A DNA stretch of 64,000 bases, taken from the NCBI RefSeq assembly GCF_026342435.1, contig NZ_JAPEMT010000001.1:2536501-2600500 (forward strand), in the 5' to 3' direction. The stretch is from Streptomyces sp. NBC_00237. Its GTDB lineage: Bacteria; Actinomycetota; Actinomycetes; Streptomycetales; Streptomycetaceae. Of the stretch, positions 720 through 46,696 are shown one piece after another. The position numbers were made by a program, and so were the translations under genes. Under the pieces are notes generated by a model. The model did not search any database and was not told the origin of the DNA. It worked only from the letters and a program-made list of their open reading frames with translations. The stretch's first letter is position 1. Each line of letters opens with the position of its first letter.

Positions 720-1814
720 ATGACCTCTCCTTCCCGTTCCAGTGTTTCCCCCGCCGGCGTGGAGCTCGCGGCCGGTGAGTTCGCGCCCGACGGCACGTAC
801 CTGAACACCTCCTCGGCCGGGCTCCTGCCGCGCCGCACCGTCGAGGCCGTCACGACGCTCGCCGAGCGGTGCGCCCTCGGCGTCCGGCCCGACGCGAGCA
901 CGTACGAGTCCGTCGAGCGGGCCCGGGCCGCGTACGGACGCCTGGTCGGCGTCGCGGCGGAGCGGGTCGCCGTCGGCGCTTCGGCGTCGGCGCAGGTGTC
1001 GGTGGTGGCGGCCTCGCTGGCTCCGGGGGCGGAAGTGCTGCTGCCGGAGGGGGAGTTCTCGTCGCTGGTGCAGCCGTTCGTGGTGCGTCCCGATCTGAAG
1101 GTGCGCTGCGTTCCGCTCGACGAACTCGCCGCCGAGGTGCGGCCGGAGACCGCACTGGTGGCGTGGTCGGTCGTGCAGTCCTCGGACGGCCGCCTCGCCG
1201 ACGACGGGGCGGTACGGGCGGCCGCCGCCGCGCACGGTGCGCGCACGCTGGCCGACCTGTCGCAGGCGGCGGGGTGGCTGACGGTCGACGCTGGGGCGTA
1301 CGACTACACGGTGTCGGTGGGGTACAAGTACTTGCTGTGCCCGCGCGGGACGTCCTTCCTGACGGTGTCGCAGGAGGCCCAGGAGGTCACGCTGCCGGTC
1401 CAGGCGGGGTGGTCGGCGGCCGAGGACATCTGGAACAGCACGTACGGGCCGATCGCCGAACTGGCACGGTCGGCCCGGCGGTACGACACGTCGGTTCCCT
1501 TCCTCTGCTACGAGGCCGCGGTGGAGTCGCTCGCCCTCGTCGAGTCGGTGGGCGTCGGGGTGCTGGGTGCGCACAACGTGGCGCTGGCGGACCGGTTGCG
1601 GGCGGGGCTCCTTGAGCGCGGGCACCTTCCGGTGCCCGCGCCGGGGTCGGCGGTGGTGGCCGTGCCGGGGCTGGGAGAGCGGGCACAGGGCCTGGGGAAG
1701 GCCGGGGTGAAGGTGTCCGCGCGGGCGGGGAACCTGAGGGTGTCCTTCCACCTGTACAACCGGGTGGGGGACGTGCAGCGGGTACTCGCGGTGCTCGGGC
1801 AGGGGGCCCGCTAG
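720..1814 (+). CDS. aminotransferase class V-fold PLP-dependent protein
   Basis: The product is about 364 residues with a class V aminotransferase/cysteine-desulfurase-like fold. The presumed PLP lysine lies in SVGYKYLLCPRGTSF, with the upstream cofactor-binding aspartate in LADLSQAAGW. ATG at 720 was chosen over an upstream in-frame GTG because translation from it gives the usual short N-terminus before the conserved YLNTSSAGLLP segment. The substrate is unknown; members of this class act as transaminases, desulfurases or epimerases. The stop codon shares a CTAG with the stop of the convergent gene. Confidence 0.8.
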   Translation: MTSPSRSSVSPAGVELAAGEFAPDGTYLNTSSAGLLPRRTVEAVTTLAERCALGVRPDASTYESVERARAAYGRLVGVAAERVAVGASASAQVSVVAASLAPGAEVLLPEGEFSSLVQPFVVRPDLKVRCVPLDELAAEVRPETALVAWSVVQSSDGRLADDGAVRAAAAAHGARTLADLSQAAGWLTVDAGAYDYTVSVGYKYLLCPRGTSFLTVSQEAQEVTLPVQAGWSAAEDIWNSTYGPIAELARSARRYDTSVPFLCYEAAVESLALVESVGVGVLGAHNVALADRLRAGLLERGHLPVPAPGSAVVAVPGLGERAQGLGKAGVKVSARAGNLRVSFHLYNRVGDVQRVLAVLGQGAR

Positions 1815-2692
1815 CCCCTCCGGCCCCGTGCCACGGCCACCCCGCCCGCCGCCAGGAGCAGGAGGCCCCCGCCCACCAGGTACGGCGTCGTCGAACTGCC
1901 GCCGGTCTCCGCCAGGTTGACCGGGTCCGCCGTCACCGTCTGCGGCAGCGGGGCCTCGGACGGCGGCGACTTCAGCGTCTGCACGTTCGGCACCGTGCAG
2001 GCCGTCGACGCCAGCGTCACCACGCCCTCCACCTCCGCCACGTTCAGCTTCAGCGGGTTCACCGACACCTTCAGCTCCAGCGCCGCCGCAGCCGCCTCCC
2101 GGGTCGTCGTGTGCGTCTTCGAGAGGGTCAGGGACACCTCGCCCACCGCCGGGACCCGCACCCGGGTCGGGCCGCCCGCCGTCAGCGTCACCCGCTTGCC
2201 CAGTACGGTCACCCGCCCCAGCGCGTTCGCCTCCGCCTCCGGGCGCGCGCCCGCCACGCACGAGGAGCGCGAGGTGACCTTCTCGACCTCGATGAGGGAG
2301 AGCAGGGGCAGGCCCGGGACGTGCACCTTCGCGCGCGCCAACTCCGCCCGCGCCTCCGCCCGTTCCGCCTGTACGTCCGCCGCCGCCTTCGCCACCTCCG
2401 CCCGCAGCATCGACACCGGCTGCCCCTGGTTCACCCCGTCGACGGTGACCGTCAGCGCCGTCCGCGCCGCGCTCCCCGGGGCCCGTACCTCATTCAGGGA
2501 CGTCGTCACCGGCACGTGCAGCGTCTTGTTGAGGAGCGAGACCTCCAGGCCCGCCTTCAGCACGGAGGCTTGGGCGGTCCCCTTCTCCGAGGGGTGGTCG
2601 GTGGCCTGCGCGGGGCCCGCCGTCAGGGCCAGCAGCGTCACCGCCCCGGCGACGGGACCGAACGCGGGCATGCGGAAGAGAGAGCTGTTCAA
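1811..2692 (-). CDS. SCO1860-family LAETG-anchored surface protein
   Basis: This is a secreted protein of 293 residues. It has a signal peptide (about residues 1-30, cleaved near AQA), a beta-rich extracellular region with two conserved Cys-containing stretches, and a C-terminal sorting signal: LAETG, a hydrophobic helix, then the basic tail RGRRG. LAxTG motifs are substrates of class E sortases, so the protein is expected to be linked to peptidoglycan. The family is known from Streptomyces but has no assigned function. The ATG start directly precedes the signal peptide. It converges on the preceding aminotransferase, with overlapping stops. Confidence 0.85.
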   Translation of the reverse strand: MNSSLFRMPAFGPVAGAVTLLALTAGPAQATDHPSEKGTAQASVLKAGLEVSLLNKTLHVPVTTSLNEVRAPGSAARTALTVTVDGVNQGQPVSMLRAEVAKAAADVQAERAEARAELARAKVHVPGLPLLSLIEVEKVTSRSSCVAGARPEAEANALGRVTVLGKRVTLTAGGPTRVRVPAVGEVSLTLSKTHTTTREAAAAALELKVSVNPLKLNVAEVEGVVTLASTACTVPNVQTLKSPPSEAPLPQTVTADPVNLAETGGSSTTPYLVGGGLLLLAAGGVAVARGRRG

Positions 2693-2993
2693 GGCGGTGG
2701 AACCCCCACAAGTGAATGACGTCGCCCGACCGGCGGCCGTCCGTCACGGGGGACACCGGGGAGGCCGCGGTCGGGCGACCGAGACAGGGGAATCTTTACG
2801 CACGGAGGGTGAAGGGGGAGGCGCAGAGCGTGAGTTCACTCCAACGGGTTGTTCTCGGGAGTGCGTTCGGGCCGAAGTGTCGTGTTGGGTACGGGAGTTC
2901 GGCGCTGAGGTGCCCGTCACCCCCGAGTGGGGGAGCGCCCAGGAGTTCATGAGGGCGTACAACGACAGCGGACGTCCCCGCGTCACCGGCGCG
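2693..2993. other. intergenic region with a 12-bp inverted repeat
   Basis: About 300 bases lie between the LAETG-protein gene (reading left) and the end of the amidohydrolase gene. Near the left gene is a perfect 12-bp inverted repeat, GTCGCCCGACCG at 2721-2732 and its complement at 2768-2779. It sits 30-85 bases upstream of that gene's ATG and could be an operator or 5'UTR hairpin. No convincing reading frame or RNA gene was seen in the rest. Confidence 0.4.
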
Positions 2994-4091
2994 TCAACGC
3001 CCGCTCAGTACGCGCCCGTTCACCACCACGTGCCGGGGCGCGCCCAGCACCCGTACGTCCGCCCGAGGATCCGCCTCGTACACCACCAGGTCCGCCGGAG
3101 CGCCCTCCGCCAGCCCCGGGCGGCCCAGCCACTCCCTCGCCGCCCACGCCGTGGCGCCGAGCGCGTCCCGGGGCGGGATGCCCGCCTTCACCAGCTCCGC
3201 CACCTCCTGCGCCACCAGCCCGTGGGCGAGGGAGCCGCCCGCGTCCGTGCCGACGAAGACCGGGATGCCCGCGTCGTACGCGGCGCGCACCGTGTCGTAC
3301 CGGCGCGCGTGCAGCTCCCGCATGTGCGCCGACCAGCGCGGGAACTTGGCCTCGCCGCCGTCCGCGAGGTGCGGGAACGTCGCGATGTTGACCAGGGTCG
3401 GGACGATGGCCACGCCCCGCTCGGCGAAGAGCGGGACGGTGTCCTCGGTCAGGCCCGTCGCGTGCTCGACGCAGTCGATCCCGGCCTCGACCAGGTCGCG
3501 CAGGGAGTCCTCGGCGAAGCAGTGCGCCGTCACCCGCGCGCCTAGGCGGTGCGCCTCCGCGATCGCCGCCTCGACCTCGCCGCGCGGCCAGCAGGGGGTC
3601 AGGTCGCCCGCCTCGCGGTCGATCCAGTCGCCGACGAGCTTCACCCAGCCGTCACTGCGGCGGGCCTCCCTCGCGACGTACGCGACCAGGTCGCCTGGCT
3701 CGATCTCGTGCGCGTAATTGCGGATGTAGCGGCGGGTGCGGGCGATGTGGCGGCCCGCCCGGATGATCTTCGGGAGGTCGTCCCGGTCGTCGATCCAGCG
3801 GGTGTCCGCCGCCGACCCCGCGTCCCGGATCAGCAGCGTGCCCGCGTCCCGGTCGGTCAGCGCCTGCTTCTCGCTGGTCCCGGCGTCCACCGCACCGTGC
3901 CGGTCGAGCCCGACATGGCAGTGCGCGTCGACCAGCCCGGGCATCACCCAGCCCGTGACCGTGGTCAACTCCGTCGCGGAAGGCGGGCGTTCGTACGTGA
4001 TCCGGCCGTCCACCGCCCAGAGTTCGTCGCGTACGTCGTCGGGTCCGGCCAGTACCCGGCCCTTCACGTGCAGCACCTCGTGATCGCTCAT
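2994..4091 (-). CDS. amidohydrolase (imidazolonepropionase-like)
   Basis: This is a metal-dependent amidohydrolase of about 365 residues. The signatures are in order: the metal motif in GLVDAHCHVGLD, a candidate carboxylated lysine in DGWVKLVGDW, histidines in TAHCFAED and CVEHATGL, and the aspartate in FVGTDAGG. The C-terminal urease-like beta-sandwich is present (PADLVVYEADP...VVVNGRVL). ATG at 4091 is preferred; a GTG at 4100 would add three residues. It lies 33 bases downstream of the MFS transporter gene on the same strand, so both are probably co-transcribed. The substrate is not identifiable, but the pairing suggests handling of a transported cyclic amide or similar compound. Confidence 0.8.
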   Translation of the reverse strand: MSDHEVLHVKGRVLAGPDDVRDELWAVDGRITYERPPSATELTTVTGWVMPGLVDAHCHVGLDRHGAVDAGTSEKQALTDRDAGTLLIRDAGSAADTRWIDDRDDLPKIIRAGRHIARTRRYIRNYAHEIEPGDLVAYVAREARRSDGWVKLVGDWIDREAGDLTPCWPRGEVEAAIAEAHRLGARVTAHCFAEDSLRDLVEAGIDCVEHATGLTEDTVPLFAERGVAIVPTLVNIATFPHLADGGEAKFPRWSAHMRELHARRYDTVRAAYDAGIPVFVGTDAGGSLAHGLVAQEVAELVKAGIPPRDALGATAWAAREWLGRPGLAEGAPADLVVYEADPRADVRVLGAPRHVVVNGRVLSGR

Positions 4092-4124
4092 GCCCAGCAC
4101 TGTACGAGCCCCCGCCCCTGCCCC

Positions 4125-5522
4125 TCAGTCCGCTGCGACGGCGGCCTTCTCGCGCCCGCCCAGCACCGCCCGGCCCGCGTCCCCGCCCAGCCGCAGCGCC
4201 CCCGCCGTCGCGGCCAGCGCCACCACGGCCAGCAGCCCGAAGGCGACCGGGTACGCGGCCTCCGCGCTCACCGCGCCGCCCGCCCGCAGTGCCAGCACGC
4301 CGACCGCGACGCCGAGGCCCGCCATCAGCTGCTGACTCGTCGCGGAAAGAGTGTTGGCGTCCCGCATCCGCTCCGGCGGCACGTCGCCGAACGAGATCGT
4401 CATGTAACAGGTCAGGCCGAGGGAGCGGGCCGCCCCGCTCAGCACGGCGAGTGCGGCGATCACGGCGACCGGGGTGTCCGCCGTCAGGAAGCCGCAGGCG
4501 GCGGTCGTCGCGGCCAGACCCACGGTCGCCACCACCAGCAGCGTCCGGAAGCCGAAACGGTGCAGCAGCCACGTCGTCGACGGCTTGATCCCGATGTTGC
4601 CGACGAAGACGAAGAGGACCACCGCCCCCGACTTCACCGCACTCCACCCGAACACGTCCTGGAAGAGGAGCGGCAGCAGGAAGGGCACCGCCCCGACCAC
4701 GATCCAGAAGAGCGAGCCGCCCGTGACCGACGCCCGGAAGGTGGCCACGCGCAGGGTCCGCAGGTCGATCAGGGGGTGCCGGGTGCGCAGCAGATGGCGT
4801 ACGACCAAGAGCAGGGCCAGCGCGGAGGCCGCCGCCACCGCCACGGTCGTGCCCCACGGGCCCACCGGCTCCGACACCAGGTGCGCGGCCCAGGTGATCC
4901 CGCCGAGGCCCGCACAGACCAGGACCGTTCCGGCGAGGTCCAGCGGCGGGGGAGTGCCGCGTCCGCCCGCCGGGATCAGACGGCGCGTCACCAGGAGGGC
5001 GAGCAGCCCGAGCGGCACGTTGATCAGAAAGAGCCAGCGCCAGTTCGCGTACGTGGTGAGGAGACCGCCCAGGAGCGGGGCGATCACCGGCGCGATCAGC
5101 GCGGGCCACACGATGAACGCCACCAGGCGCGGAATGTCGGGCTTCGCCGCCCCGCCCAGCACGACCAGGCGTCCGACCGGCACCATCATCGCGCCGCCCG
5201 CCCCCTGGAGGACCCGCAGCGCGACGAGCTGCCCCACGTCGGTGGCCAGCGCGCACCCCAGCGAGGCGAGCGTGAAGACGGTGATCGCGCCGAGCAGGAC
5301 GCGCCGGGCCCCCAGCCGTACGGTCAGCCAGCCGCTGAGCGGTATGAGGACGGCCAGCGTCACCAGGTACGCGGTGACCAGGAGACCGACGGTGGCGGGG
5401 GTGGTGTGCAGGGAGGCGGCGATGTCGGGAGCGGCCGTCGACACCAGGGTGCCGTCCAGGTTCTCCATGAAGAAGCAGCCCGCGACGAGGAGCGCGATGC
5501 TGCGTTGACGTGCGTCGATCAT
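4125..5522 (-). CDS. MFS transporter, DHA2 (EmrB/QacA) family
   Basis: This membrane transporter of 465 residues begins with the family-typical FFMENLDGTLVSTAAPDIA in the first helix. It has the motif A-like loop GWLTVRLGARRVLL and helix-5 GGAMMVPVGRLVV. The length fits the 14-helix drug:H+ antiporter type. ATG at 5522 is preceded by GGAGAG. It is transcribed divergently from a LysR regulator 121 bases away, the usual arrangement for a LysR-controlled exporter, and is followed by the amidohydrolase gene. Confidence 0.85.
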   Translation of the reverse strand: MIDARQRSIALLVAGCFFMENLDGTLVSTAAPDIAASLHTTPATVGLLVTAYLVTLAVLIPLSGWLTVRLGARRVLLGAITVFTLASLGCALATDVGQLVALRVLQGAGGAMMVPVGRLVVLGGAAKPDIPRLVAFIVWPALIAPVIAPLLGGLLTTYANWRWLFLINVPLGLLALLVTRRLIPAGGRGTPPPLDLAGTVLVCAGLGGITWAAHLVSEPVGPWGTTVAVAAASALALLLVVRHLLRTRHPLIDLRTLRVATFRASVTGGSLFWIVVGAVPFLLPLLFQDVFGWSAVKSGAVVLFVFVGNIGIKPSTTWLLHRFGFRTLLVVATVGLAATTAACGFLTADTPVAVIAALAVLSGAARSLGLTCYMTISFGDVPPERMRDANTLSATSQQLMAGLGVAVGVLALRAGGAVSAEAAYPVAFGLLAVVALAATAGALRLGGDAGRAVLGGREKAAVAAD

Positions 5523-5643
5523 GACTCTCCGAAGGGAGGAGTGAGGAAGAGGCGGATGTCCCCGCGGCCGTCGGGAGATGTCCATCGTCGGCTCCGTGAC
5601 TGCTGACCACAAGTTCCGAATGAGCAACCTAGGATTGCGTTCC

Positions 5644-6576
5644 ATGCAGCTCCCGGACCTGAACCTCCTCCCCGCCCTGGACGCCCTCCTGCGCACCGGC
5701 AGCGTCGCCGGGGCCGCCGCCGAGATGCGGGTCTCCGCCTCCGCGATGAGCCGCACGCTGGGCCGGCTGCGCCGGGTGGTGGGCGACGCCCTGCTCGTGC
5801 CGGCCGGGCGGGGGCTCGTGCTGACCCCTGCCGCGCGGGCCATGCGGCCGGGCGTACGGGCCGCGCTGGAGGCGGCGTCGGCGGCCCTCCAGCCGCCACT
5901 GCCCCTCGAACTGGACACGCTGGAGCGGGAGTTCACCATCCGGTGCAGTGACGCCTTCTGCGTGTCGGTCGGCTCCGGGCTCGTGGCGTACGCCGCCGAA
6001 GCGGCCCCCGGGGTACGGCTGCGCCTGCTGCCCGAGGGTGACGAGGACCCCGCCGACCTGCGCGACCGGGTCGACCTCGACGTCGGGGTGCTGCCCCCGC
6101 TGCCGCCCGACGTGCGCAGCAGCCCGCTGGGCAGCGGCAGCTACACGGCGGTGGCCAGGAAGAGCGCTCCCTTCGCCCGACGGCCGCTCGGCGTCGAGGA
6201 GTTCGCGGCGGTCCCGCACGTCACCGTCTCCCGGCACGGCCGCGCCCACAGCGTCGTCGACGACCGGCTGCGCGCGCTCGGGCTCACCCGGGACGTCCGC
6301 GCGACCGTGCCCACGTACGGCGCGGCCTGCTTCATGGCGCTCGGCGCGGACGTGCTCGCGCTGGTGCCGTCCGGGTACGCCGTGCACGCCGTACGGGAGA
6401 TGGGGCTGGTCGCCCTGGACATCCCGCTCGACCTGCCGGAGGCGGAGTCCGCGCAGGCATGGCACCTGCGGGTGGACGCCGACCCGGCGCACCGGTGGCT
6501 GCGGGCGGCCGTCGAGCGGCTCAGCGGACAGGCACACGCCCGGGTCCGGAAGGGGGGACTACCCTCGGCCGGGTAA
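5644..6576 (+). CDS. LysR family transcriptional regulator
   Basis: The product is about 310 residues. The N-terminal winged helix-turn-helix (LNLLPALDALLRTGSVAGAA...SASAMSRTLGRLR, about residues 5-45) is followed by a periplasmic-binding-protein-like effector domain. ATG at 5644 is chosen because an AGGA lies eight bases upstream; an ATG at 5620 is possible. It is divergent from the MFS/amidohydrolase pair and upstream of a class V aminotransferase, so it probably regulates the exporter side and itself. No clear T-N11-A operator stands out in 5523-5643. Confidence 0.85.
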   Translation: MQLPDLNLLPALDALLRTGSVAGAAAEMRVSASAMSRTLGRLRRVVGDALLVPAGRGLVLTPAARAMRPGVRAALEAASAALQPPLPLELDTLEREFTIRCSDAFCVSVGSGLVAYAAEAAPGVRLRLLPEGDEDPADLRDRVDLDVGVLPPLPPDVRSSPLGSGSYTAVARKSAPFARRPLGVEEFAAVPHVTVSRHGRAHSVVDDRLRALGLTRDVRATVPTYGAACFMALGADVLALVPSGYAVHAVREMGLVALDIPLDLPEAESAQAWHLRVDADPAHRWLRAAVERLSGQAHARVRKGGLPSAG

Positions 6577-6607
6577 GGCCGAACACTGATCCGAAGAGAG
6601 CGCCGCC

Positions 6608-7732
6608 GTGACACAGCCTCCGCTGAAGCCGAACCTGCTGGACCTGCCCGCCCTCACCGCCGAGGACGTCGCGCGCATCGACGCCAAGGTCGCCGCCTTC
6701 CTCGGCACCGGGCAGGACGTCGTGATCATGCAGGGCGAGGCTTTGCTGCCCCTGGAGGCGTGCATCCGGGCGGGCGCACCGCGCGGCTCGCACGCGCTGA
6801 ACATCGTCACCGGTCCCTACGGACAGACCTTCGGCAACTGGCTGCGCGACTGCGGCGCGACCGTCCACGACCTCGCGGTGCCCTTCCAGACGGCGGTCAC
6901 CGCCGACGCGGTGCGCGAGGCGCTCGCCGCCCACCCCGAGATCGGCTTCGTGTCGCTGGTGCACGCCGAGGCCGCGACCGGCAACACCAACCCGGTCGCT
7001 TCGATCGGCGAAGTGGTGCGCGCCCACGGCGCGTTGTTCTACCTGGACGCCGTCGCCTCGGTCGGCGCGGAGCCGGTGCGCCCCGACGCGTGGGGCGTCG
7101 ACCTGTGCGTCATCGGCGCGCAGAAGGCGATGGGCGGCCCCGCCGGGGTGTCCGCCGTCTCCGTGAGCGCCCGCGCCTGGGAGCGCTTCGCCGCCAACCC
7201 GGACGCGCCCCGCGCCTCGTACCTCTCGCTCCTGGACTGGAAGGCGCGCTGGATCGACGGCGGACGCAAGGCGCTGATGTTCGCCCCCGCTCAGCTGGAG
7301 ATGCTCGCGCTGGAGGCGTGCCTCGACCGCATCGAGGCGGAGGGCCTCGACGCCGTCATGGCGCGGCACGCCCGGGCCGCCGCCGCGACGCGGGCGGGTG
7401 CCCTCGCGCTCGGCGGCGGGATCGAGCCGTTCGTGCACGAGGCCCGGGACGCGGCCCCCGTCGCCACCACGCTGCGCGTGACCGGCGGGCTCGACGCGTC
7501 CGAGGTCGTCGCGAAGGCCCTGGCCCTCGCCCCTTCGGCACCGCTGATCGCGGGCGGGGGCGCGCTCGCCAAGGAGATGATCCGGGTCAACCACTACGGC
7601 GCGGACGCCACGCGCGGGGCGGTGCTCGCCTCGCTGGAGGCGCTGGCCGGTGCGCTGGAGGAGCTCGGCGCTCCGGGCGTGGAGACCGCTTCTGCCCGGA
7701 GTGCCGTGACGGAAACCTGGCCGGGCGAATAA
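6608..7732 (+). CDS. class V aminotransferase (alanine-glyoxylate/serine-pyruvate type)
   Basis: This is a PLP enzyme of 374 residues. The cofactor lysine is in IGAQKAMGGPAG, and LVHAEAATGNTNP and FYLDAVASVGAEP carry conserved cofactor contacts. The overall sequence resembles the alanine:glyoxylate/serine:pyruvate/ureidoglycine aminotransferase group rather than cysteine desulfurases. The GTG start at 6608 is 31 bases after the LysR gene, so the two may be co-transcribed. The strong hairpin at 7792-7834 closes the unit. The amino donor and acceptor are not predictable from sequence. Confidence 0.8.
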   Translation: MTQPPLKPNLLDLPALTAEDVARIDAKVAAFLGTGQDVVIMQGEALLPLEACIRAGAPRGSHALNIVTGPYGQTFGNWLRDCGATVHDLAVPFQTAVTADAVREALAAHPEIGFVSLVHAEAATGNTNPVASIGEVVRAHGALFYLDAVASVGAEPVRPDAWGVDLCVIGAQKAMGGPAGVSAVSVSARAWERFAANPDAPRASYLSLLDWKARWIDGGRKALMFAPAQLEMLALEACLDRIEAEGLDAVMARHARAAAATRAGALALGGGIEPFVHEARDAAPVATTLRVTGGLDASEVVAKALALAPSAPLIAGGGALAKEMIRVNHYGADATRGAVLASLEALAGALEELGAPGVETASARSAVTETWPGE

Positions 7733-7791
7733 TTCACCAGCAATGGGTGATGGGATTACGGCGCATTCCCCGTAATTCAAAGAAGTTCACA

Positions 7792-38762: not shown

Positions 38763-39518
38763 TCAGAAGCCGTGACGGGCCCCGCCGTCCACCGGGAGCA
38801 TGACCCCGGTCAGGTACGACGCGCCCGGCGACAGCATGAACGCCGCCACCCGCCCGAACTCCTCCGCCGTCCCGTACCTCCGCAGCGGAATCCGCGCCGC
38901 ATGCGCCTCCCGCACCGCCTCCGGATCATCGGCCAGCGAGTCCAGGTACCGCACCCGGTCCGTGTCGATCCGCGCCGGGAGCAGCCCGATCACTCGGATC
39001 CCCCGAGGCCCGACCTCTTCCGCGAGGGTCTTCGCGAACCCCGCGAGCCCCGGCCGCAGACCGTTGGAGATGGCGAGCCCCGGGATCGGCTCGTGCACCG
39101 ACGCCGACAGCACGAAGCCGATCACACCCCCCTCACCCAGTTCCGCCGCCGCCGTCCGCGCCAGCCGTACCGCGCCCAGGAACACCGACTCGAAGGCGTC
39201 CCGCCACTGCTCGTCGGTGTTCTCCGACGTACTCCCCGCCGCAGGCCCCCCGACGCTGATCAGCATCCCGTCGAACCCGCCGAAACGAGCCCGCGCCTCC
39301 GCGACCAGCCTCCCCGCGGCAGCGGGATCCGCGTTGTCCGCCGCGACCGCCACCGCGTTCGGCCCGAGAGCCTCGGCGGCCTCGCCGACGGCCTTCTCGT
39401 CGCGCGCCGTCAGGACGACCTTCGCCCCGTCCGCCACGAGCTCCTTCGCCGCGGCGAAGCCCAGGCCACGGCTCGCACCCGTGACCACGTACACACGATC
39501 CTTCAGTCCAAGATCCAT
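38763..39518 (-). CDS. SDR family oxidoreductase with non-canonical active site
   Basis: This Rossmann-fold protein of 251 residues has the cofactor motif VVTGASRGLGFAAA and the C-terminal LTGVMLPVDGGARHGF. At the position of the catalytic YxxxK it has S-N-G-L-R (PGLAISNGLRPGLAGFAK), so Tyr becomes Ser and Lys becomes Arg. This variant recurs in an SDR subfamily and may indicate altered chemistry or a non-catalytic role. ATG 39518 has AGGATAGGG upstream. It starts four bases after the GH15 stop and is surely co-transcribed. Confidence 0.85.
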   Translation of the reverse strand: MDLGLKDRVYVVTGASRGLGFAAAKELVADGAKVVLTARDEKAVGEAAEALGPNAVAVAADNADPAAAGRLVAEARARFGGFDGMLISVGGPAAGSTSENTDEQWRDAFESVFLGAVRLARTAAAELGEGGVIGFVLSASVHEPIPGLAISNGLRPGLAGFAKTLAEEVGPRGIRVIGLLPARIDTDRVRYLDSLADDPEAVREAHAARIPLRRYGTAEEFGRVAAFMLSPGASYLTGVMLPVDGGARHGF

Positions 39519-39522
39519 GGCC

Positions 39523-41376
39523 CTATCCTGCACCCTCCTCGGAGGACGCCTCCTCCCGGGCCAGCGCCAACGCCGTTCCCACCAGCCCGATATGGCTGAA
39601 CGCCTGCGGGAAGTTCCCGATCTGCCGACGCGTCACCGGGTCGTACTCCTCCGCCAGCAGCCCCACGTCGTTCCGCAGCGCGCACAGCGTGTCGAACAGC
39701 TCCCGCGCCTCCTTCACCCGCCCGGTCATCAGCAGCGCGTCCGCCAGCCAGAACGAACACACCAAGAACGCGCCCTCGCCCCCCGGCAGCCCGTCGACCC
39801 GATTGCCCTCCGTGGCCTCGGCCTCGTCCGCGCTGTACCGCCGGATGAAGGCACTGCCCCGCCCCAGCTCGGCCCGGACCGCCTCCACCGTCCCCACCAC
39901 CCGAGGATCGTCCGGCGGCAGGAATCCCACCTGCGGAATCAGCAGCGTCGCCGCGTCCAGCTCCACCGACCCGTAGGACTGGGTGAAGGTGTTGCGCTCG
40001 GGGTCGTAGCCCTTCTCGCAGACCTCGCGGTGCACCTCGTCGCGCATCGCCCGCCAGCGTGCGGCGTCCCCCGGAAGCGAAGGGTCCTCCTCCAGAATCC
40101 GCACCGCACGGTCGGCGGCCACCCACGCCATCACCTTGGAGTGCACGAAGTGCCGACGAGGTCCCCGCACTTCCCACAGCCCGTCGTCGGGCTCCCGCCA
40201 CATCGTCTCCAGGAAGCCGAGCAGGCTCAGCTGGAGCTTCCAGGCGTGCGGCTTGGGCGCGAGCCCGGCCTCCCGCGCCACGTACAGCGAGTCGATGACC
40301 TCCCCGTACACATCGAGCTGGAGCTGTTCCGCAGCGTCGTTCCCGATCCGCACCGGGGCGGAGTTCTCGTACCCGCGCAGCCACGGAAGTTCCAGCTCCG
40401 GCAGGCGGCGCTCGCCGGAGATGCCGTACATGATCTTCAGGTCGGCGGGGTCCCCGGCGACCGCGCGCAGCAGCCAGTCGCGCCAGTCGGCGGCCTCGTC
40501 GAGGTACCCGGCGGACAGCAGCGAGCCCAGGGTCAGGGTGGAGTCGCGCAGCCAGCAGTACCGGTAGTCCCAGTTCCGTACGCCGCCGATCTCCTCCGGC
40601 AGCGAGGTCGTCGGCGCGGCGACGATGCCGCCGGTGGGCGCGTAGGTGAGGGCCTTGAGCGTGATGAGCGAACGCAGTACGGCCTCCCGGTGCGGCCCTT
40701 CGTACGTGCACTTCGCCGCCCACTCCTCCCAGTCCTGGAGGCTGTGCGCCAGCGACTCGTACGGGTTGATGAGAGGGGGCCTCGGCTCGTGCGAGGGGTG
40801 CCAGGTCAGCACGAACGCGACCTGCTCGCCGGGCCGTACGCAGAAGGAGGAGCGGGTGCTGTACTGCTGCCCCCAGGTCTTCACCCGGGGCCCCTCGCCC
40901 TCCGTCCCGTCCGCCGCCCGCGACACGTCCCGCAGCCAGATCGCGTCGGGGCCCGCGACCGCGACCCGGTGGCCGTCCGTGCGGCGCACCCACGGCACGA
41001 TGTGGCCGTAGTCGAAGCGCAGCCGGAGCGTGGAGTGCACGGTGACCTCGCCGGAGAGCCCTTCCACGATCCGTACGACATCGGGGGCCTGGTCGCGCTG
41101 CGGCATGAAGTCGGTGACCTTGACACTGCCCGAACGGGTCTCCCACACGGTCTCCAGGACCAGCGATTCGCCCCGGTAGGAGCGGGAGGCACAGGTGCCC
41201 GCGCCCTCCGGGGCGAGCCGCCAATGGCCGTTCTCCTGGTCGCCGAGCAGGGCGGCGAAACACGCGGCGGAGTCGAAGCGGGGCAGGCAGAGCCAGTCGA
41301 GGGAACCGTCGCGGCCGACCAGGGCCGCGGTCTGGAGGTCCCCGATGAGCGCGTAGTCCTCGATGCGTTGGGTCAC
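39523..41376 (-). CDS. glycoside hydrolase family 15 protein (trehalase/glucoamylase-like)
   Basis: This cytoplasmic protein of 617 residues lacks a signal peptide. The N-terminal beta-sandwich begins RIEDYALIGDLQTAALVGRDGSLDWLCLPRFDS. The (alpha/alpha)6 barrel follows with GGVRNWDYRYCWLRDSTLTL, IGNDAAEQLQLDVYGEVIDSLY and the late LLAEEYDPVTRRQIGNFPQAFSHIGLV, where acid/base glutamates are expected. Actinobacterial members include acid trehalases that hydrolyse trehalose to glucose; glucoamylase activity is an alternative. It is followed by the variant SDR. A 26-bp repeat array lies upstream. Confidence 0.88.
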   Translation of the reverse strand: MTQRIEDYALIGDLQTAALVGRDGSLDWLCLPRFDSAACFAALLGDQENGHWRLAPEGAGTCASRSYRGESLVLETVWETRSGSVKVTDFMPQRDQAPDVVRIVEGLSGEVTVHSTLRLRFDYGHIVPWVRRTDGHRVAVAGPDAIWLRDVSRAADGTEGEGPRVKTWGQQYSTRSSFCVRPGEQVAFVLTWHPSHEPRPPLINPYESLAHSLQDWEEWAAKCTYEGPHREAVLRSLITLKALTYAPTGGIVAAPTTSLPEEIGGVRNWDYRYCWLRDSTLTLGSLLSAGYLDEAADWRDWLLRAVAGDPADLKIMYGISGERRLPELELPWLRGYENSAPVRIGNDAAEQLQLDVYGEVIDSLYVAREAGLAPKPHAWKLQLSLLGFLETMWREPDDGLWEVRGPRRHFVHSKVMAWVAADRAVRILEEDPSLPGDAARWRAMRDEVHREVCEKGYDPERNTFTQSYGSVELDAATLLIPQVGFLPPDDPRVVGTVEAVRAELGRGSAFIRRYSADEAEATEGNRVDGLPGGEGAFLVCSFWLADALLMTGRVKEARELFDTLCALRNDVGLLAEEYDPVTRRQIGNFPQAFSHIGLVGTALALAREEASSEEGAG

Positions 41377-41445
41377 GCTGAAGCGTGTTCCCGTCCGGGC
41401 GCGGCGTCAATCAGCCACGTCGGTCACGTGTTCACACCGGTCACA

Positions 41446-41538
41446 GCGCACGCACCGCGCGCACGCACGGCTCGTACGCACCGTTCGCACGCACGGCTCG
41501 CACGCACCGCGCGCACGCACGGCTCGCACGCACCGAGG
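41446..41538. repeat. 26-bp tandem repeat upstream of the GH15 gene
   Basis: Units at 41461, 41487 and 41513 share GCACGCACGGCTCG-ACGCACCG with a 26-base period. A partial unit (GCGCACGCACCGCGC) precedes them. The array lies 70-160 bases upstream of the GH15 ATG, in the likely promoter region, and just past the SURF1 gene stop. Confidence 0.85.
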
Positions 41539-41556
41539 AGCTGCCCCCACCGACGA

Positions 41557-42372
41557 TCAGGCGGAAGCCGTCTCCGGCTTCTCCGCCTCGGCCGCCTCGT
41601 CGGCGTCCTGCGCGATCCCGGCCGCCACAGCGTCCCGCTCGCGCTTCTCACGTCGTACGAGAATGACCCAGCCGACGGGCACCGCGGCCACGAACAGCCA
41701 CCACTGCACGGCGTACGCCATGTGCGGGCCGATCGACTCCGAGTCGGGGGTGCCGATCACCTCGGGGCTGTTGTCCGGCGGAACCGGATCGGTCAGCTCC
41801 AGGTAGCCGCCGAGCACCGGGCGGCCCAGCAGCTTCGACTGCTGCGCGCTGTTCATCAGCATCACCTGCCGGGGCGGCAGGTCCTTCAGGTCCTTGATGC
41901 CGCTGCCGGACGTCGTCTCGTCCGCCTTCAGCCGACCGGTGATCGTCACCTCGCCCTTCGGCGGGACCGGGACGTGCGGGAACGCCTGCTGATCGGTGGC
42001 GAACGGGACCCAGCCCCGGTTGACCAGGACCGTGCCGCCGCCCTTCAGGTCAAGCGGGGTCAGCACGAGGAAGCCGACCTGGTCGTCGGACGAGGTGCGG
42101 CGGCGCACGACGACCTCGTGCGCGGTGTCGTACCTGCCGGTGGCGGTCGCCGTGCGCCAGAAGTCGGCGCGCGGGACGGAGTGGCCGGGAGACGTGAGCT
42201 CCTGGACGGGCTTCGGCTTCGCCTTCAGGTTCCCGGCGATCAGCTGGTTCTGGGCGACCCTGTGCTCGTGGCGGTGGTACTGCCAGAAGCCGAGTTCGAC
42301 CATGACGGGCATGAGGACCAGCGCCAGGAGGGTGAGGATCACCCACTGCCGGGACAACAGGAAGCGGTACAC
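41557..42372 (-). CDS. SURF1 family cytochrome oxidase biogenesis protein
   Basis: The product is 271 residues with the classical two-helix SURF1 layout: a helix at about 9-28 (WVILTLLALVLMPVMVELGFWQYHR), a periplasmic domain with VVVRRRT, VLVNRGWVP and the GRL segment, and a second helix at about 218-240 (AYAVQWWLFVAAVPVGWVILVRR). SURF1 proteins aid haem insertion and assembly of cytochrome c oxidase. The start is GTG 42372. A charged C-terminal tail (about 245-271) extends into the cytoplasm. Confidence 0.9.
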   Translation of the reverse strand: MYRFLLSRQWVILTLLALVLMPVMVELGFWQYHRHEHRVAQNQLIAGNLKAKPKPVQELTSPGHSVPRADFWRTATATGRYDTAHEVVVRRRTSSDDQVGFLVLTPLDLKGGGTVLVNRGWVPFATDQQAFPHVPVPPKGEVTITGRLKADETTSGSGIKDLKDLPPRQVMLMNSAQQSKLLGRPVLGGYLELTDPVPPDNSPEVIGTPDSESIGPHMAYAVQWWLFVAAVPVGWVILVRREKRERDAVAAGIAQDADEAAEAEKPETASA

Positions 42373-42462
42373 GCTTTGACGGTACCTGGCGTGAGAAGTC
42401 CCCCGGTGGGCGGGTTGCCCGAGCCGGGGGAGCCGAGGGGAGAGCGAGGGGGACCGGACGTC

Positions 42463-42696
42463 TCACACCTTGTCGACGATGCCCACCTTCCCCTCCGCGC
42501 GGGAGCAGTGCGCACCGCAGAACCACTGGCCCTCGACCTCGACGCCCTGGCCGATGATGCGGCACCGGCAGTGCTCGCAGATCGGGGCCATCCGGTGGAT
42601 GGCGCAGGAGAAGCAGTCGAACACGTGCACCGCGCCCTGCGCGTGCACCTCGAAGGACATGCCGTAGTCGTTTCCGCAAACCTCGCATCGTGCCAT
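42463..42696 (-). CDS. small cysteine-rich zinc-ribbon-like protein
   Basis: The product is 77 residues with three cysteine clusters: CEVC at residues 4-7; CFSC-AIH and CEHCRC in the middle; and FCGAHC near the end. Spacing suggests two zinc-binding knuckles of a LIM/metallothionein-like kind. There is no other domain. Proteins of this kind are widespread in Streptomyces without known function. It lies between SURF1 and exonuclease genes on the same strand. Confidence 0.78.
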   Translation of the reverse strand: MARCEVCGNDYGMSFEVHAQGAVHVFDCFSCAIHRMAPICEHCRCRIIGQGVEVEGQWFCGAHCSRAEGKVGIVDKV

Positions 42697-42791
42697 GGGG
42701 CACAGGGTGCAGTGCGCAGGGGCGCAGGGCGTGCGGGGCACGCCCGACCGTCACCCGTCCGACGGTGTGAGCGGTCCTACGAGCCCCCGCC

Positions 42792-43784
42792 CTACGCGCT
42801 GGTCCGGGCCGGCGCCACGTCGCGCAGCAGATGCGTGTACGCCGCCTCGTCGACGACCGGGGTGCCGAAGGACTTGGCCTTGACGGTCTTGGAGGTCGCC
42901 GAGTCCGGGTCGTTGGTGACCAGCAGGCTCGTCAGCCGGGACACGCTCGTCGCGACGTGCAGTCCCGCCTCGACCGTACGGTCCTCCAGGAGGTCCCGGT
43001 CCACCGACGTGTCGCCGGAGAACGCCACCCGCATCCCCTGCATCAGCGGCTTGTCCGCCTGGTAGCGGCCCGGGTTCGGGTACGGGCAGGCGGGCCGCTT
43101 CTTGGAGGGCCGCCAACTGCCCTGCCCGCCGCCGCTCCCGCCGTACGAGGACTGGTAGCCGATCCGGGGAGCGGCGGGCGCGTCCGACCACTCGGTCAGC
43201 GGGCGGCACTCCAGAAGGGGCAGCCGGACCCCGCCCTGCGCCGCCGCGTGCAGGCTCGGCCGGAACGCCTCCGCGAGGACGCGGGCGTCGTCCAGCGCGT
43301 GGTGCGCGTGCTGCTGCACCACGCCGAAGTGGGCGGCCAGCGAGGCCAGCTTGTGGTTGGGCAGCGGCAGCGCCAGCTCCTTGGCGAGCGCGATGGTGCA
43401 CAGCCGCTGCCGTACGGGGGCGACGTGCCCGGCCCGTGCGTACTCCCGCGCCAGCATCGACCAGTCGAACATCGCGTTGTGCGCGACGAGGACCCGCCCG
43501 TCGAGCCGCTCGGACAGCTCGCCCGCGATCTCCGGGAAGAGCGGCGCGCCCTCCAAGACCTCGGTGGTCAGCCCGTGGATCCACGTCGGCCCTGGATCCC
43601 GCTCGGGGTTGACCAGGGTGTACCAGTGGTCGACCACGTCGCCGTGCGCGTCGAGGCGGTAGACGGCGGCGGAGATTATCCGGTCGTCGCGGGAGAGACC
43701 TGTGGTCTCCACGTCGACGACCGCGTACCCCTTCGGGTAGGCGGTCGGCCAGGTTGCTGCCGCTGTGGTCTGGTCATCGAGCAT
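42792..43784 (-). CDS. DEDDh 3'-5' exonuclease with C-terminal BRCT domain
   Basis: The product is 330 residues. The exonuclease domain shows Exo I YAVVDVETTGL, Exo II VAHNAMFDWSMLARE and Exo III HHALDDARVLAEAF, all DEDDh residues present. A Gly/Ser-rich linker leads to a BRCT-like domain (MQGMRVAFSGDTSVDRDLLEDRTVEAGLHVATSVSRLTSLLVTND). This resembles DNA polymerase III epsilon-like proofreading nucleases fused to BRCT, suggesting a DNA repair role. ATG 43784 is chosen; no alternative nearby is better. Confidence 0.88.
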   Translation of the reverse strand: MLDDQTTAAATWPTAYPKGYAVVDVETTGLSRDDRIISAAVYRLDAHGDVVDHWYTLVNPERDPGPTWIHGLTTEVLEGAPLFPEIAGELSERLDGRVLVAHNAMFDWSMLAREYARAGHVAPVRQRLCTIALAKELALPLPNHKLASLAAHFGVVQQHAHHALDDARVLAEAFRPSLHAAAQGGVRLPLLECRPLTEWSDAPAAPRIGYQSSYGGSGGGQGSWRPSKKRPACPYPNPGRYQADKPLMQGMRVAFSGDTSVDRDLLEDRTVEAGLHVATSVSRLTSLLVTNDPDSATSKTVKAKSFGTPVVDEAAYTHLLRDVAPARTSA

Positions 43785-43819: not shown

Positions 43820-46696
43820 CTATTCGCCCAGTACGGAGCCCGTTTCCGGCATCGGGTCCCGGGCCCCTCCGGTCCCCACCTCCGGTGGCACCGGCCCGAG
43901 TTCCGCGACGAGGTCCCCGGCCGTGACCCGCGTCACTCCCCGGTGCCCGTCGACCGGTCCGGGGAAGAGCCGGTAGACCGTGCCGGTCGCCTTCTCGGGC
44001 ACGGGCTCCCCGTGCACCCGGGCCACCAGCACCCGCCGCCCCGAGAGGAGCCCTTCGAGGTCCGTCGACGTCCCGTGCTCCTGCGGCACTTCGGCCGCCG
44101 CCAGCCGCCCGGCGAAGGCGGCCGCACTCTCGCCCTCCGCACGCCGGTACGTCCACAGCGCACCGTCCCGCCGCACCACGGTCACCTCCGGCGCGCGTGC
44201 CGCCGCGTGCCAGCGGGCGAGGTCGGCCATGTTCGTACGGCTGCCGAAGGAGAAGTACGAGGTGAGGTCCCGGGCGATCCTGCCCAGGTCGTGGGTGTGC
44301 GAGGCGATGCTCTGGAAGCCTCCGGCGGGCGGCAGATGGAGGTCCGTCCACAGCGCCTCGCGGCGGCGCAGGTCCACCAGCATGGGGACGCAGACCTGCG
44401 AGTCGCCCGCCAGGTCGAAGCGCTGGCGGACCGTGCGCGGGTCGTACGAGGAGTCGCGCGGGCGTCCGCCGTCGAGTTCCATGAAGCCCGCGAAGGCGTC
44501 CGTCAGCTTCTCGAACGCGATGTTGTTGAAGGAGAAGACGACGGGCATGGCGTACGCGATCCCGGCGTGCGCGAGCAGCGGCAGCTCCAGGTCGACGTAC
44601 TCCGTGGCCCCGCCAGGGGCGGGCGCGGAGGTCAGGTCGCCGGAGTGCACCGCCGCACCCCCGTCGTGCCGCAGCGCGGTGTAGTCGCACAGCCCCACGA
44701 AGGTCAGGTCGCTGCCGTAGAACGCCACCGACAGGTCGAGGTCCACCCGGGTGTCCGCCGGTTGCGTCCAGTGCAGGAACAGCCGCATCGCCTCGCCGGG
44801 CGGCAACGGCAGGCGGCTGCCCCGGGGCACCGCGACGAGCGAGGCGGCGGACGCGTGCTCGGCGAACGGCACGGTCAGGTCCTCCAGCGCCTCGTCGATC
44901 ACGGCGTGGTCGTATCCCTCCCGCTCCGCGAGCCGCCGCAGCACCTCGGCCTCCAGCAGGCCGCACACCCGGGCGGCCGGCCCGGCGGGCAGCGGAGCCC
45001 GGTCCTCCGCCACGGCGAAGGCACGGGTGACCTCGCCGCGCGGGAAGAACACCCGGCGTGCCGGGGGATCCGTCCGGTGGCGCACGCGCAGTGCGCCGTA
45101 CGCGGACACCAGGGCGCCCACCCCGGCCCGGGGGAGCGTGTGCTCCAGCGCCTCGGCGAGCGCGTCGAGGGCGTCCGGCGCGGCTTCGGCACCGTCCGGC
45201 GCGGCCCCGGTGTCGTCCGGCGCGGCTGCGGTGTCGTACAGCCGCAGTACGTGATCCAGGCGGCGCAGCAGTTCGCCAGGGCGCTGGCGCAACAGCCTTG
45301 TCGCGCGCGGGAGTTCCCGTGCGGCGAGGGCCGTCTCGACCTGCCCGTTCCAGGTCACGGCACGGACCCGGCCGTCCTCGACCGTCACCCACCGGGGGTG
45401 CTGCGCGGCGAGTTCCCGCAGCTCGGGGAACGCGTCGGTGTCGGTCTCGCGCAGCACGGCGAAGGCGAGCGCGGCCCGGGGGTGGCGTGCGTACTGCTCG
45501 TACGGATGCAGGCTCTCGGCCGCACGCTTCCAGGGGCCCGGGTGGCGGCGCAGGTCCTCGATGAGCGAGCCCGTGTGCAGTTCGTCCAGTACGGCGAGGA
45601 GCTCGCGCCGCAGTGCGCGCGGCAGGCTGCGGAACCGGGGCGGCTTCAGCAGGGCCGCGTTGCCGCCCGAGCGCACACAGAGCAGCCGCAGTACGTCGGT
45701 GGCCGTGGTGAGCCTCGCCCGCAACTGCGCCCGCGCCGCGTCGGCGGTGCGCGGCTCGCACAGCAGGGTGCCCAGGACGAGGGCCTTGGTCTCGCGTACG
45801 GGGATGTCCTCGGGCAGTGCGGAGAGGTCGGCGGGCAGGGCCGGGAGGAGGGCGGCCAGGTCCGCGTACTCCTGCCCGGAGAGCGGGGTCTGACGCACCA
45901 TCAGTTTCCGTGCCTCGGTGGCCGACGCGGAGGGGAGGTCGGTACCGAGGGAGAGCAGGCGCAGCGGTCCCGCGAAGGCCGGACGACGGGATGCTCCGCG
46001 CGCCGGGCGTGCGGGGGGAGCGACCGGGGTCAGGAACGGGTCGTCCGGATCGAGGCGACGGTGGCAGATCGGGCAGCCCGAGTAGTCCGCGCCGTCCCAG
46101 CAGGCACGGCACACCAGATGGGCGCACGGCGACACCGGATGCACGGTGGAGACCGCGCCGCACAGCACGCAGGGCTGCTGCGGCTCCTGGAGCAGCAGCG
46201 TGAAGACGCGGTCCACGTACAGCAGGGCGGTGTCGCACGGCACGGTGAGCGGGAAGAGCTGGAACAGCGGGGTGTGCGTGCGGTGCGAGCCCAGCAGCTC
46301 GTCGGCACCGGACAGCAGCAGACGGCCCTCACGGGCCAGGTCGATGTGGTCCAGCGCGGCGAACGCGGCGTGCAGGGGCGCGGTCAACGCGAAGCCCCGG
46401 TCGAGGAGTTCCGCTTCGAGTACGACGAGGCGCGGCGCGGTGCGCGGGTCCTCGGCGAGGGCCGGGGCGAGGTCGAGGTGCACGGTCTGGGTCCGGCGGA
46501 GCAGCACGGACTGGGGTGAGGGCAAGTGGGCCTTCCGCGAGGGGCGGTGCGCGACGAAGCGGCGCGTGGGCGGTGCCGGGGCGCGGCTGAATCCTGTGGC
46601 GGGCTTGTGGCAGGGACGGAGAGTGGGGGCGCTACGGCGTCGGAGGATGAGAAGGAAGCGCGCGCGGAGCCGCCCTGCGCGGGTGATTCTATGCAT
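43820..46696 (-). CDS. RING-finger and TerD-like domain protein (MXAN_6230/SCO0854 family)
   Basis: The product is about 958 residues. A complete C3HC4 RING pattern (C176, C179, C191, H193, C196, C199, C208, C211) fits C-x2-C-x11-C-x-H-x2-C-x2-C-x8-C-x2-C. A long helical region follows (about 215-620). Then comes a TerD-like beta-sandwich (VDLDLSVAFYGSDLTFVGLCDY, VHSGDLTSAP, GIAYAMPVVFSFNNIAFEKLTDAFAGFMELDG). The combination matches the bacterial RING/TerD family named after SCO0854. RING domains bind zinc and, in eukaryotes, ubiquitin-conjugating enzymes; no such partners are visible here. The start is uncertain: ATG 46696 has GAGAGG close by, but a later start near residue 64 is possible. 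Confidence 0.75.
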   Translation of the reverse strand: MHRITRAGRLRARFLLILRRRSAPTLRPCHKPATGFSRAPAPPTRRFVAHRPSRKAHLPSPQSVLLRRTQTVHLDLAPALAEDPRTAPRLVVLEAELLDRGFALTAPLHAAFAALDHIDLAREGRLLLSGADELLGSHRTHTPLFQLFPLTVPCDTALLYVDRVFTLLLQEPQQPCVLCGAVSTVHPVSPCAHLVCRACWDGADYSGCPICHRRLDPDDPFLTPVAPPARPARGASRRPAFAGPLRLLSLGTDLPSASATEARKLMVRQTPLSGQEYADLAALLPALPADLSALPEDIPVRETKALVLGTLLCEPRTADAARAQLRARLTTATDVLRLLCVRSGGNAALLKPPRFRSLPRALRRELLAVLDELHTGSLIEDLRRHPGPWKRAAESLHPYEQYARHPRAALAFAVLRETDTDAFPELRELAAQHPRWVTVEDGRVRAVTWNGQVETALAARELPRATRLLRQRPGELLRRLDHVLRLYDTAAAPDDTGAAPDGAEAAPDALDALAEALEHTLPRAGVGALVSAYGALRVRHRTDPPARRVFFPRGEVTRAFAVAEDRAPLPAGPAARVCGLLEAEVLRRLAEREGYDHAVIDEALEDLTVPFAEHASAASLVAVPRGSRLPLPPGEAMRLFLHWTQPADTRVDLDLSVAFYGSDLTFVGLCDYTALRHDGGAAVHSGDLTSAPAPGGATEYVDLELPLLAHAGIAYAMPVVFSFNNIAFEKLTDAFAGFMELDGGRPRDSSYDPRTVRQRFDLAGDSQVCVPMLVDLRRREALWTDLHLPPAGGFQSIASHTHDLGRIARDLTSYFSFGSRTNMADLARWHAAARAPEVTVVRRDGALWTYRRAEGESAAAFAGRLAAAEVPQEHGTSTDLEGLLSGRRVLVARVHGEPVPEKATGTVYRLFPGPVDGHRGVTRVTAGDLVAELGPVPPEVGTGGARDPMPETGSVLGE

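Follow-up and report, generated by a model that had tools for sequence, protein, structure and literature searches.

The window, that is, the whole 64,000-nucleotide stretch of Streptomyces sp. NBC_00237 DNA that was analysed, encodes a RING-TerD protein whose core is shared with large phages, and since most of the phage relatives stand among tRNA genes, while a relative from a bacterium is linked to RtcR, the suggested role lies with damaged tRNA and not with ubiquitin tagging. We tentatively favour a scaffold or effector for tRNA damage whose RING would act as a protein-contact module, a role that the window copy would hold by descent. The family name and architecture were known already, while the phage/tRNA-array and RtcR context is new to us; in the literature read we found neither the phage branch nor the half-RING forms, nor any linkage to tRNA arrays or RtcR.

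Domain layout of the RING-TerD protein

The protein is a full-length member of NF041916 (MXAN_6230/SCO0854 family RING protein; 1042 bits vs. a cut-off of 600, profile positions 2-842 of 842), so that its architecture had already been catalogued; RING, middle and C-terminus are the same as in that family and nothing essential differs. The family is named in NCBIfam and unstudied, and no paper on the family or its function came up in the literature under either SCO0854 or MXAN_6230. The ATG at 46696, from which the gene had been read in the original prediction, probably lies too far upstream, since in the alignment with relatives family homology begins only at about 46525 (TTG, protein start MPSPQSVLLRR) or at the alternative GTG at 46507. 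An open frame of 1421 aa at window positions 38800-43065 on the plus strand, antisense to real genes, is a typical spurious ORF of high-GC DNA. The features read from the TTG are:

43820-46525, minus strand: coding sequence, 901 aa, MXAN_6230/SCO0854-family RING domain-containing protein (NF041916; start alignment with relatives)
46190-46525, minus strand: N-terminal helical domain, residues 1-112, common to RING-less phage relatives (AF2 model, alignments)
46064-46171, minus strand: C3HC4 RING finger, residues 119-154, eight zinc ligands (PF14447, invariant ligands, PDB profile matches, RING-only model with Foldseek)
44921-45961, minus strand: predicted alpha-solenoid (HEAT/ARM-like) middle, residues 189-535 (AF2 pLDDT mostly >90, weak HEAT/ARM structure matches)
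44321-44818, minus strand: TerD-like beta-sandwich, residues ~570-735, with DLDLS and HSGD motifs (Foldseek 3ibz/2qng/2qz7, Pfam TerD in 7/46 relatives, weak 2kxt alignment)
43865-44308, minus strand: C-terminal helical/alpha-beta extension, residues 740-887, present in RING-bearing members (AF2 model)
42792-43721, minus strand: neighbour outside the system, DEDDh-BRCT exonuclease (NF004719), a syntenic core gene (profile match, synteny)

The eight ligands occupy exactly 46064-46171 with the predicted RING spacing (CVLC-x11-CAHLVCRAC-x8-CPIC) and are invariant in a 65-sequence alignment. The domain is that of Pfam Prok-RING_4 (PF14447; E 1.7e-20, 73 bits vs. a cut-off of 27), and judged by this profile score the match is not a chance one. 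When a profile of the RING family was run against PDB sequences, solved RINGs were matched (RNF4 at 1.7e-9, CBL-B at 1.5e-8), and a RING-only model (pLDDT 90.8) had RING E3s as top Foldseek matches (BIRC7 with prob 0.99; the PML RING with TMt 0.75 and rmsd 1.6 A), the E-values, at about 0.02, being modest owing to the small size of the domain. As the model matches RING E3 structures first, the predicted fold is that of a genuine cross-brace RING rather than a treble-clef or a ribbon, with putative binding of two zinc ions. Burroughs, Iyer and Aravind reportedly described the prokaryotic RING families, Prok-RING_4 among them, in 2011, and the Pfam text of PF14447 is said to mention fusions to helical/TROVE-like repeats and to TerD and to suggest a role in RNA processing.

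In the AF2 model of the whole protein, built from 46 sequences (pLDDT 88, pTM 0.87), the helical middle anticipated by the original prediction takes the form of an alpha-solenoid; its HEAT/ARM matches in Foldseek are all weak, and in the alignment it carries a family signature, TATDVLRL...SGG, with T274, T276, D277, V278, L279 and R280 invariant. The TerD-type sandwich, which had been expected about 400 residues past the RING, starts about 415 residues after it, and Foldseek retrieved TerD of S. coelicolor (3ibz, E 3.6e-6, prob 1.00, TMt 0.72) together with 2qng/2qz7, all TerD structures at E 1.8e-4 or better. The structure matches thus returned both the cross-brace RING and the TerD fold on which the prediction hinged. 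With known TerD proteins (3ibz, 2qng, 2qz7, 2kxt) the domain shares the beta-sandwich fold and the DxD and HxGD motifs, whereas it lies below Pfam's reach (no match of the Pfam TerD model at E<5 in the window protein, matches in 7 of 46 relatives, the best at 8e-6), aligns weakly to 2kxt, is fused to a solenoid and a RING and has no Ter operon. D595, D597, D630 and E642 are conserved, but the acidic GDGDD calcium loop is missing, the classical GEGDGDDE being replaced by SAPAPGGATE in the window protein. The C-terminal extension is missing or shorter in the RING-less alignment rows.

Spread of the family and the fate of its RING

A scan of genome contigs found 476 stretches encoding relatives, and the best 80 of the 476 belong mostly to Streptomyces and Kitasatospora, but also to Myxococcus, Streptosporangium, Nonomuraea and Kribbella. 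Distribution is patchy, the NF041916 cut-off being passed in 9 of 61 genomes (60 of relatives plus the own genome), and a RING-less paralogue occurs in some Streptomyces that have no RING-TerD gene. Plasmid-borne members were found in Streptomyces, Variovorax, Niallia, Deinococcus, Vibrio and Mycolicibacterium. On Streptomyces linear megaplasmids (L035 2427-6449, L036 1737-5770, also L213 776-4284) a shared block near the RING gene consists of an HU protein and three hypothetical genes, of which one encodes about 700 aa, and vWA/AAA genes lie on the RING gene's other side.

The core is also present in 44 viral contigs and in the isolated phages RcXuper, RpAliso, Weasels2, WXIN, XacN1, SCTP-2 and LpeD. 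In its RING-less form it is PHROG 33734 (large phages, unknown function), matched by the window protein at E 6.1e-42 in three stretches; N-terminal helices, alpha-solenoid and TerD-like domain are common to both, whereas in the PHROG the full RING is absent and a short linker, of about 35 residues in many phages, stands in its place, with the exception of L119, a member of the RING clade. BFVD yielded full-length fold matches as well, e.g., a Siphoviridae protein named 'putative tellurium resistant like'.

All eight ligands are kept in 83 of 83 full RINGs, and a Pro follows the seventh in 82. In two viral relatives (L120, L122) and in Variovorax (L033), C1, C2, C5 and C6 are lost while C3, H4, C7 and C8 are kept, and the four residues kept are exactly one complete zinc site (site 2), site 1 being the one lost; these half RINGs would be natural one-zinc RINGs. 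Such forms are not unheard of, as a review has described prokaryotic RINGs lacking two pairs of ligands (PMC11354881). In a quick tree of the core, computed with the RING columns removed and without inferring a root, the full RINGs form one group (SH-aLRT 99) that requires one change, while the half RINGs require two. On these alignments the RING is a cassette of one bacterial clade, whose sister proteins have a half RING or none, and the distribution of the three states on the tree indicates that it was either added to a RING-less core or trimmed away to leave one.

A bacterial RING E3 ligase served by a distant E2/ubiquitin-like pair would agree with the full set of ligands and the conserved Pro, with the hydrophobic residue that most members have behind the first ligand, at the position of E2 contact, with the E3 RINGs that are the closest solved structures and with the 4 ThiF-type genes of the genome; we nevertheless hold it to be quite improbable, given a RING that is halved or absent in sister proteins and the following results. 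Directly behind the eighth ligand, the canonical linchpin (Arg/Lys) occurs in 6 of 83 members and is missing in 77, the window protein having a His there, and since some active RINGs also do without an Arg/Lys at this position its absence lowers the E3 claim rather than killing it. Among the E2 families, PF14461, PF14457 and PF00179 had no match in the own genome, where control genomes were equally silent, and PF14461 had none in the 60 relatives' genomes, no positive control having given a signal. No E1, E2 or ubiquitin-like gene was found among the neighbours within about 8 kb, as had been stated of E2 and ubiquitin-like genes for the adjacent ones, and no E1, E2 or Ubl neighbour was noted in the annotated loci of relatives. 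Ubiquitin E3 activity is consequently not supported, with the linchpin mostly missing and no E2 found in a search that had no working control. Where the original prediction had left a choice between a non-ubiquitin role and a partner elsewhere, the former is the better-supported branch (linchpin in 6/83, RING dispensable in sister branches), and for the latter no E2 of the three Pfam families was found in the genome. In another part of the genome a ThiF gene and a TerD gene are about 1.3 kb apart; the ThiF gene was considered as an E1 partner and discarded, as it lies among ordinary-looking Streptomyces genes.

The neighbouring DEDDh-BRCT exonuclease had been put forward as a possible functional associate. 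It lies on the same strand about 100 bp away here, and adjoins the RING-TerD gene in 37 of 80 loci, mostly at a distance of 100-300 bp, which would suit a partnership in DNA repair; these loci, however, are all from Streptomyces and show one syntenic arrangement, the exonuclease is carried by 35 of 37 Streptomyces genomes, most of them without a RING-TerD gene, and it is absent near all copies outside the 37 loci. As either gene occurs without the other, shared ancestry of the locus is enough to explain the adjacency, the association is abandoned and a joint role in repair is very improbable. Beyond such lineage synteny, no neighbour common to the bacterial copies was found.

The patchy distribution just described, with 9 of 61 genomes above the cut-off, and a Deinococcus plasmid copy near defence-like genes (a caspase-like protein and the DISARM component DrmD) would also fit a chromosomal Streptomyces protein that defends against phages by another mechanism. 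We regard this as unlikely, because no PADLOC model matched the window protein at E 0.001, synteny is stable and vertical in one Streptomyces lineage, and the gene stands alone and has a core that phages themselves carry.

tRNA arrays and RNA-repair links of the relatives

In viral contigs the gene is linked to tRNAs. Of 15 contigs that also supplied control stretches, 10 have tRNAs within about 8 kb of the gene, whereas tRNAs occur in 2 of the 40 controls, with a density of 0.38 vs. 0.027 per kb (Fisher p 5e-6; within-contig permutation p 0.0006). Among non-duplicate viral loci, tRNAs were found in 23 of 39, and within 1 kb in 12 of 39. The linkage recurs in several branches of the tree, namely in L137 and L139 (kin of the RING-less Streptomyces paralogues), in the jumbo-phage branch with L127, L133, L147, L160 and others, and, through L119, in the RING clade. 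The RpAliso gene lies inside a tRNA array and adjoins a tRNA nucleotidyltransferase, that of RcXuper likewise stands between tRNAs beside a nucleotidyltransferase, and Weasels2 has five tRNAs and RtcB near the gene; in WXIN, LpeD, XacN1 and SCTP-2 no tRNAs were found nearby. An enrichment of tRNA nucleotidyltransferases near phage copies was not upheld, as the loci are few and control stretches have the enzyme too.

L119, a full RING member (1066 bits), bridges the tRNA-array linkage to the RING clade. Its contig (IMGVR_UViG_2867339791) is tailed-phage and actinophage-like, with ~69% GC and tape-measure, virion and replication genes, and the gene starts 133-220 nt after a 35-tRNA array (1126-7742) in which an HNH endonuclease and a protein with an ATP-dependent ligase domain are also encoded; downstream of the gene there is a weak match to the HAD domain of RNA-repair proteins. 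Bacterial copies showed neither a tRNA array nor a steady RNA-repair neighbour. Single ARAGORN matches in 11 of 80 bacterial loci, some of them within the gene itself, were judged to be chance. The 64-kb window around the Streptomyces copy contains no tRNA, and it is for this reason that the tRNA role proposed for the window copy is one by descent.

Since phage tRNA arrays are regions of accessory genes, the linkage could be hitch-hiking. The protein could then be a Ter-type stress or phage-response protein, in which TerD senses a metal or nucleotide-like signal, the helices serve as scaffold and the tRNAs are an accessory-gene neighbourhood only. The predicted TerD fold, the 15 TerD domains in the same genome and a TerB gene about 2 kb from the Deinococcus relative speak for it, as does the reading of TerD in jumbo phages as part of a Ter-type stress/phage response (PMC7824862). 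Against it, no TerC, TelA, vWA, PRTase, HAD or other Ter gene was found among the neighbours of the window gene within about 8 kb (SDR, GH15, SURF1, exonuclease, TetR, ADC, amidohydrolases, VIT1), the D-x-D, HSGD and E positions alone remain after loss of the acidic loop, and the RtcR/sigma-54 placement described next is left unexplained. The Ter-type role is possible, but we deem it rather unlikely.

The tRNA-damage reading finds its bacterial counterpart in Variovorax sp. SRS16 (L033), where the half-RING relative is divergent from a gene run ending in rtcR (RtcR equivalog model, 710 bits vs. a cut-off of 650). A perfect sigma-54 site, TGGCACGGGCATTGCA, at L033 8152-8167 points at the gene from about 57 bp upstream of its start, and is the sole perfect one in 19 kb, where shuffling gives an expectation of 0.02. 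With neither rtcB nor rtcA annotated in the Variovorax locus, the half-RING gene seems to occupy the place of rtcBA. The signal that activates RtcR consists of 5' tRNA halves bearing a cyclic phosphate (PMC7790460), and from its promoter the Variovorax relative appears to be switched on by this broken-tRNA sensor. The RtcR link is known from one plasmid lineage; near the Vibrio and Myxococcus relatives no convincing sigma-54 sites were found. In Streptomyces, sigma-54 would not be expected. The Vibrio relative has RNA ligases at a distance of about 3 kb, as does the S. halstedii plasmid copy at 7 kb, each a single observation.

In Ro60/Rsr (TROVE-vWA) RNPs accompanied by RtcBA, a protein built of helical repeats is likewise connected with RtcR and tRNA damage, whereas the window family has no significant TROVE homology and bears TerD instead of vWA. 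A TROVE/Ro60 origin of the helical middle, an idea taken from the Pfam text and inspection by eye, was rejected: hhalign against Streptomyces TROVE proteins gave prob 0.1 and E 0.48, the comparison with PDB sequences gave no match, and no Ro60 was among the Foldseek matches listed. As a separate observation, TROVE-vWA (Ro60-like) genes lie 1-5 kb from TerD-domain genes, often double-TerD, in about a dozen Streptomyces genomes (e.g., G003:C2 103353/104535, G027:C1 5002927/5004072, G034:C22 91950/93358), hinting at a general TerD-RNP link. In the own genome a double-TerD gene (L221 5339-6583) is kept and no TROVE match was found.

Proposed function and its meaning

In the mechanism that we propose, the family core of N-terminal helices, alpha-solenoid and TerD-like sandwich would act in the response of cell or phage to damaged or scarce tRNA. 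The alpha-solenoid may hold tRNA, whole or in fragments, or else a protein that binds these, and the TerD-like domain may be a ligand- or metal-dependent switch, while the RING of the one bacterial clade would recruit a partner as a protein-contact or dimerisation module, and not act as a ubiquitin ligase. Host systems such as Septu cleave tRNA (PMC13096335), and the tRNA arrays that mobile elements carry have been viewed as putative anti-defence units (PMC12803027). On such elements the protein might guard the element's own tRNA array or aid survival of host anticodon nucleases; on Streptomyces chromosomes, provided that the copy keeps this role, it might play a corresponding part for the host when such a conflict arises.

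A wider proposal would see here a new class of tRNA-damage response extending from jumbo phages to Streptomyces, in which broken tRNAs are bound by the solenoid-TerD core, which phages carry along with their tRNA arrays against host anticodon nucleases; some bacteria would have placed it under RtcR control where RtcBA otherwise stands, and the RING has a non-ubiquitin role in one clade; taken as a whole this is conceivable, though on the doubtful side.

Full cross-brace RINGs are rare among bacteria. As to the purpose that they may serve there without a ubiquitin system, the family provides a natural series of full RING, one-zinc half RING and no RING on one core, which makes the contribution of the RING directly testable. 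The tRNA-array linkage and the RtcR-type promoter are the first concrete functional lead found for this widespread phage and bacterial family, and they connect this family with the struggle of tRNA-cleaving immunity against the tRNAs of phages.
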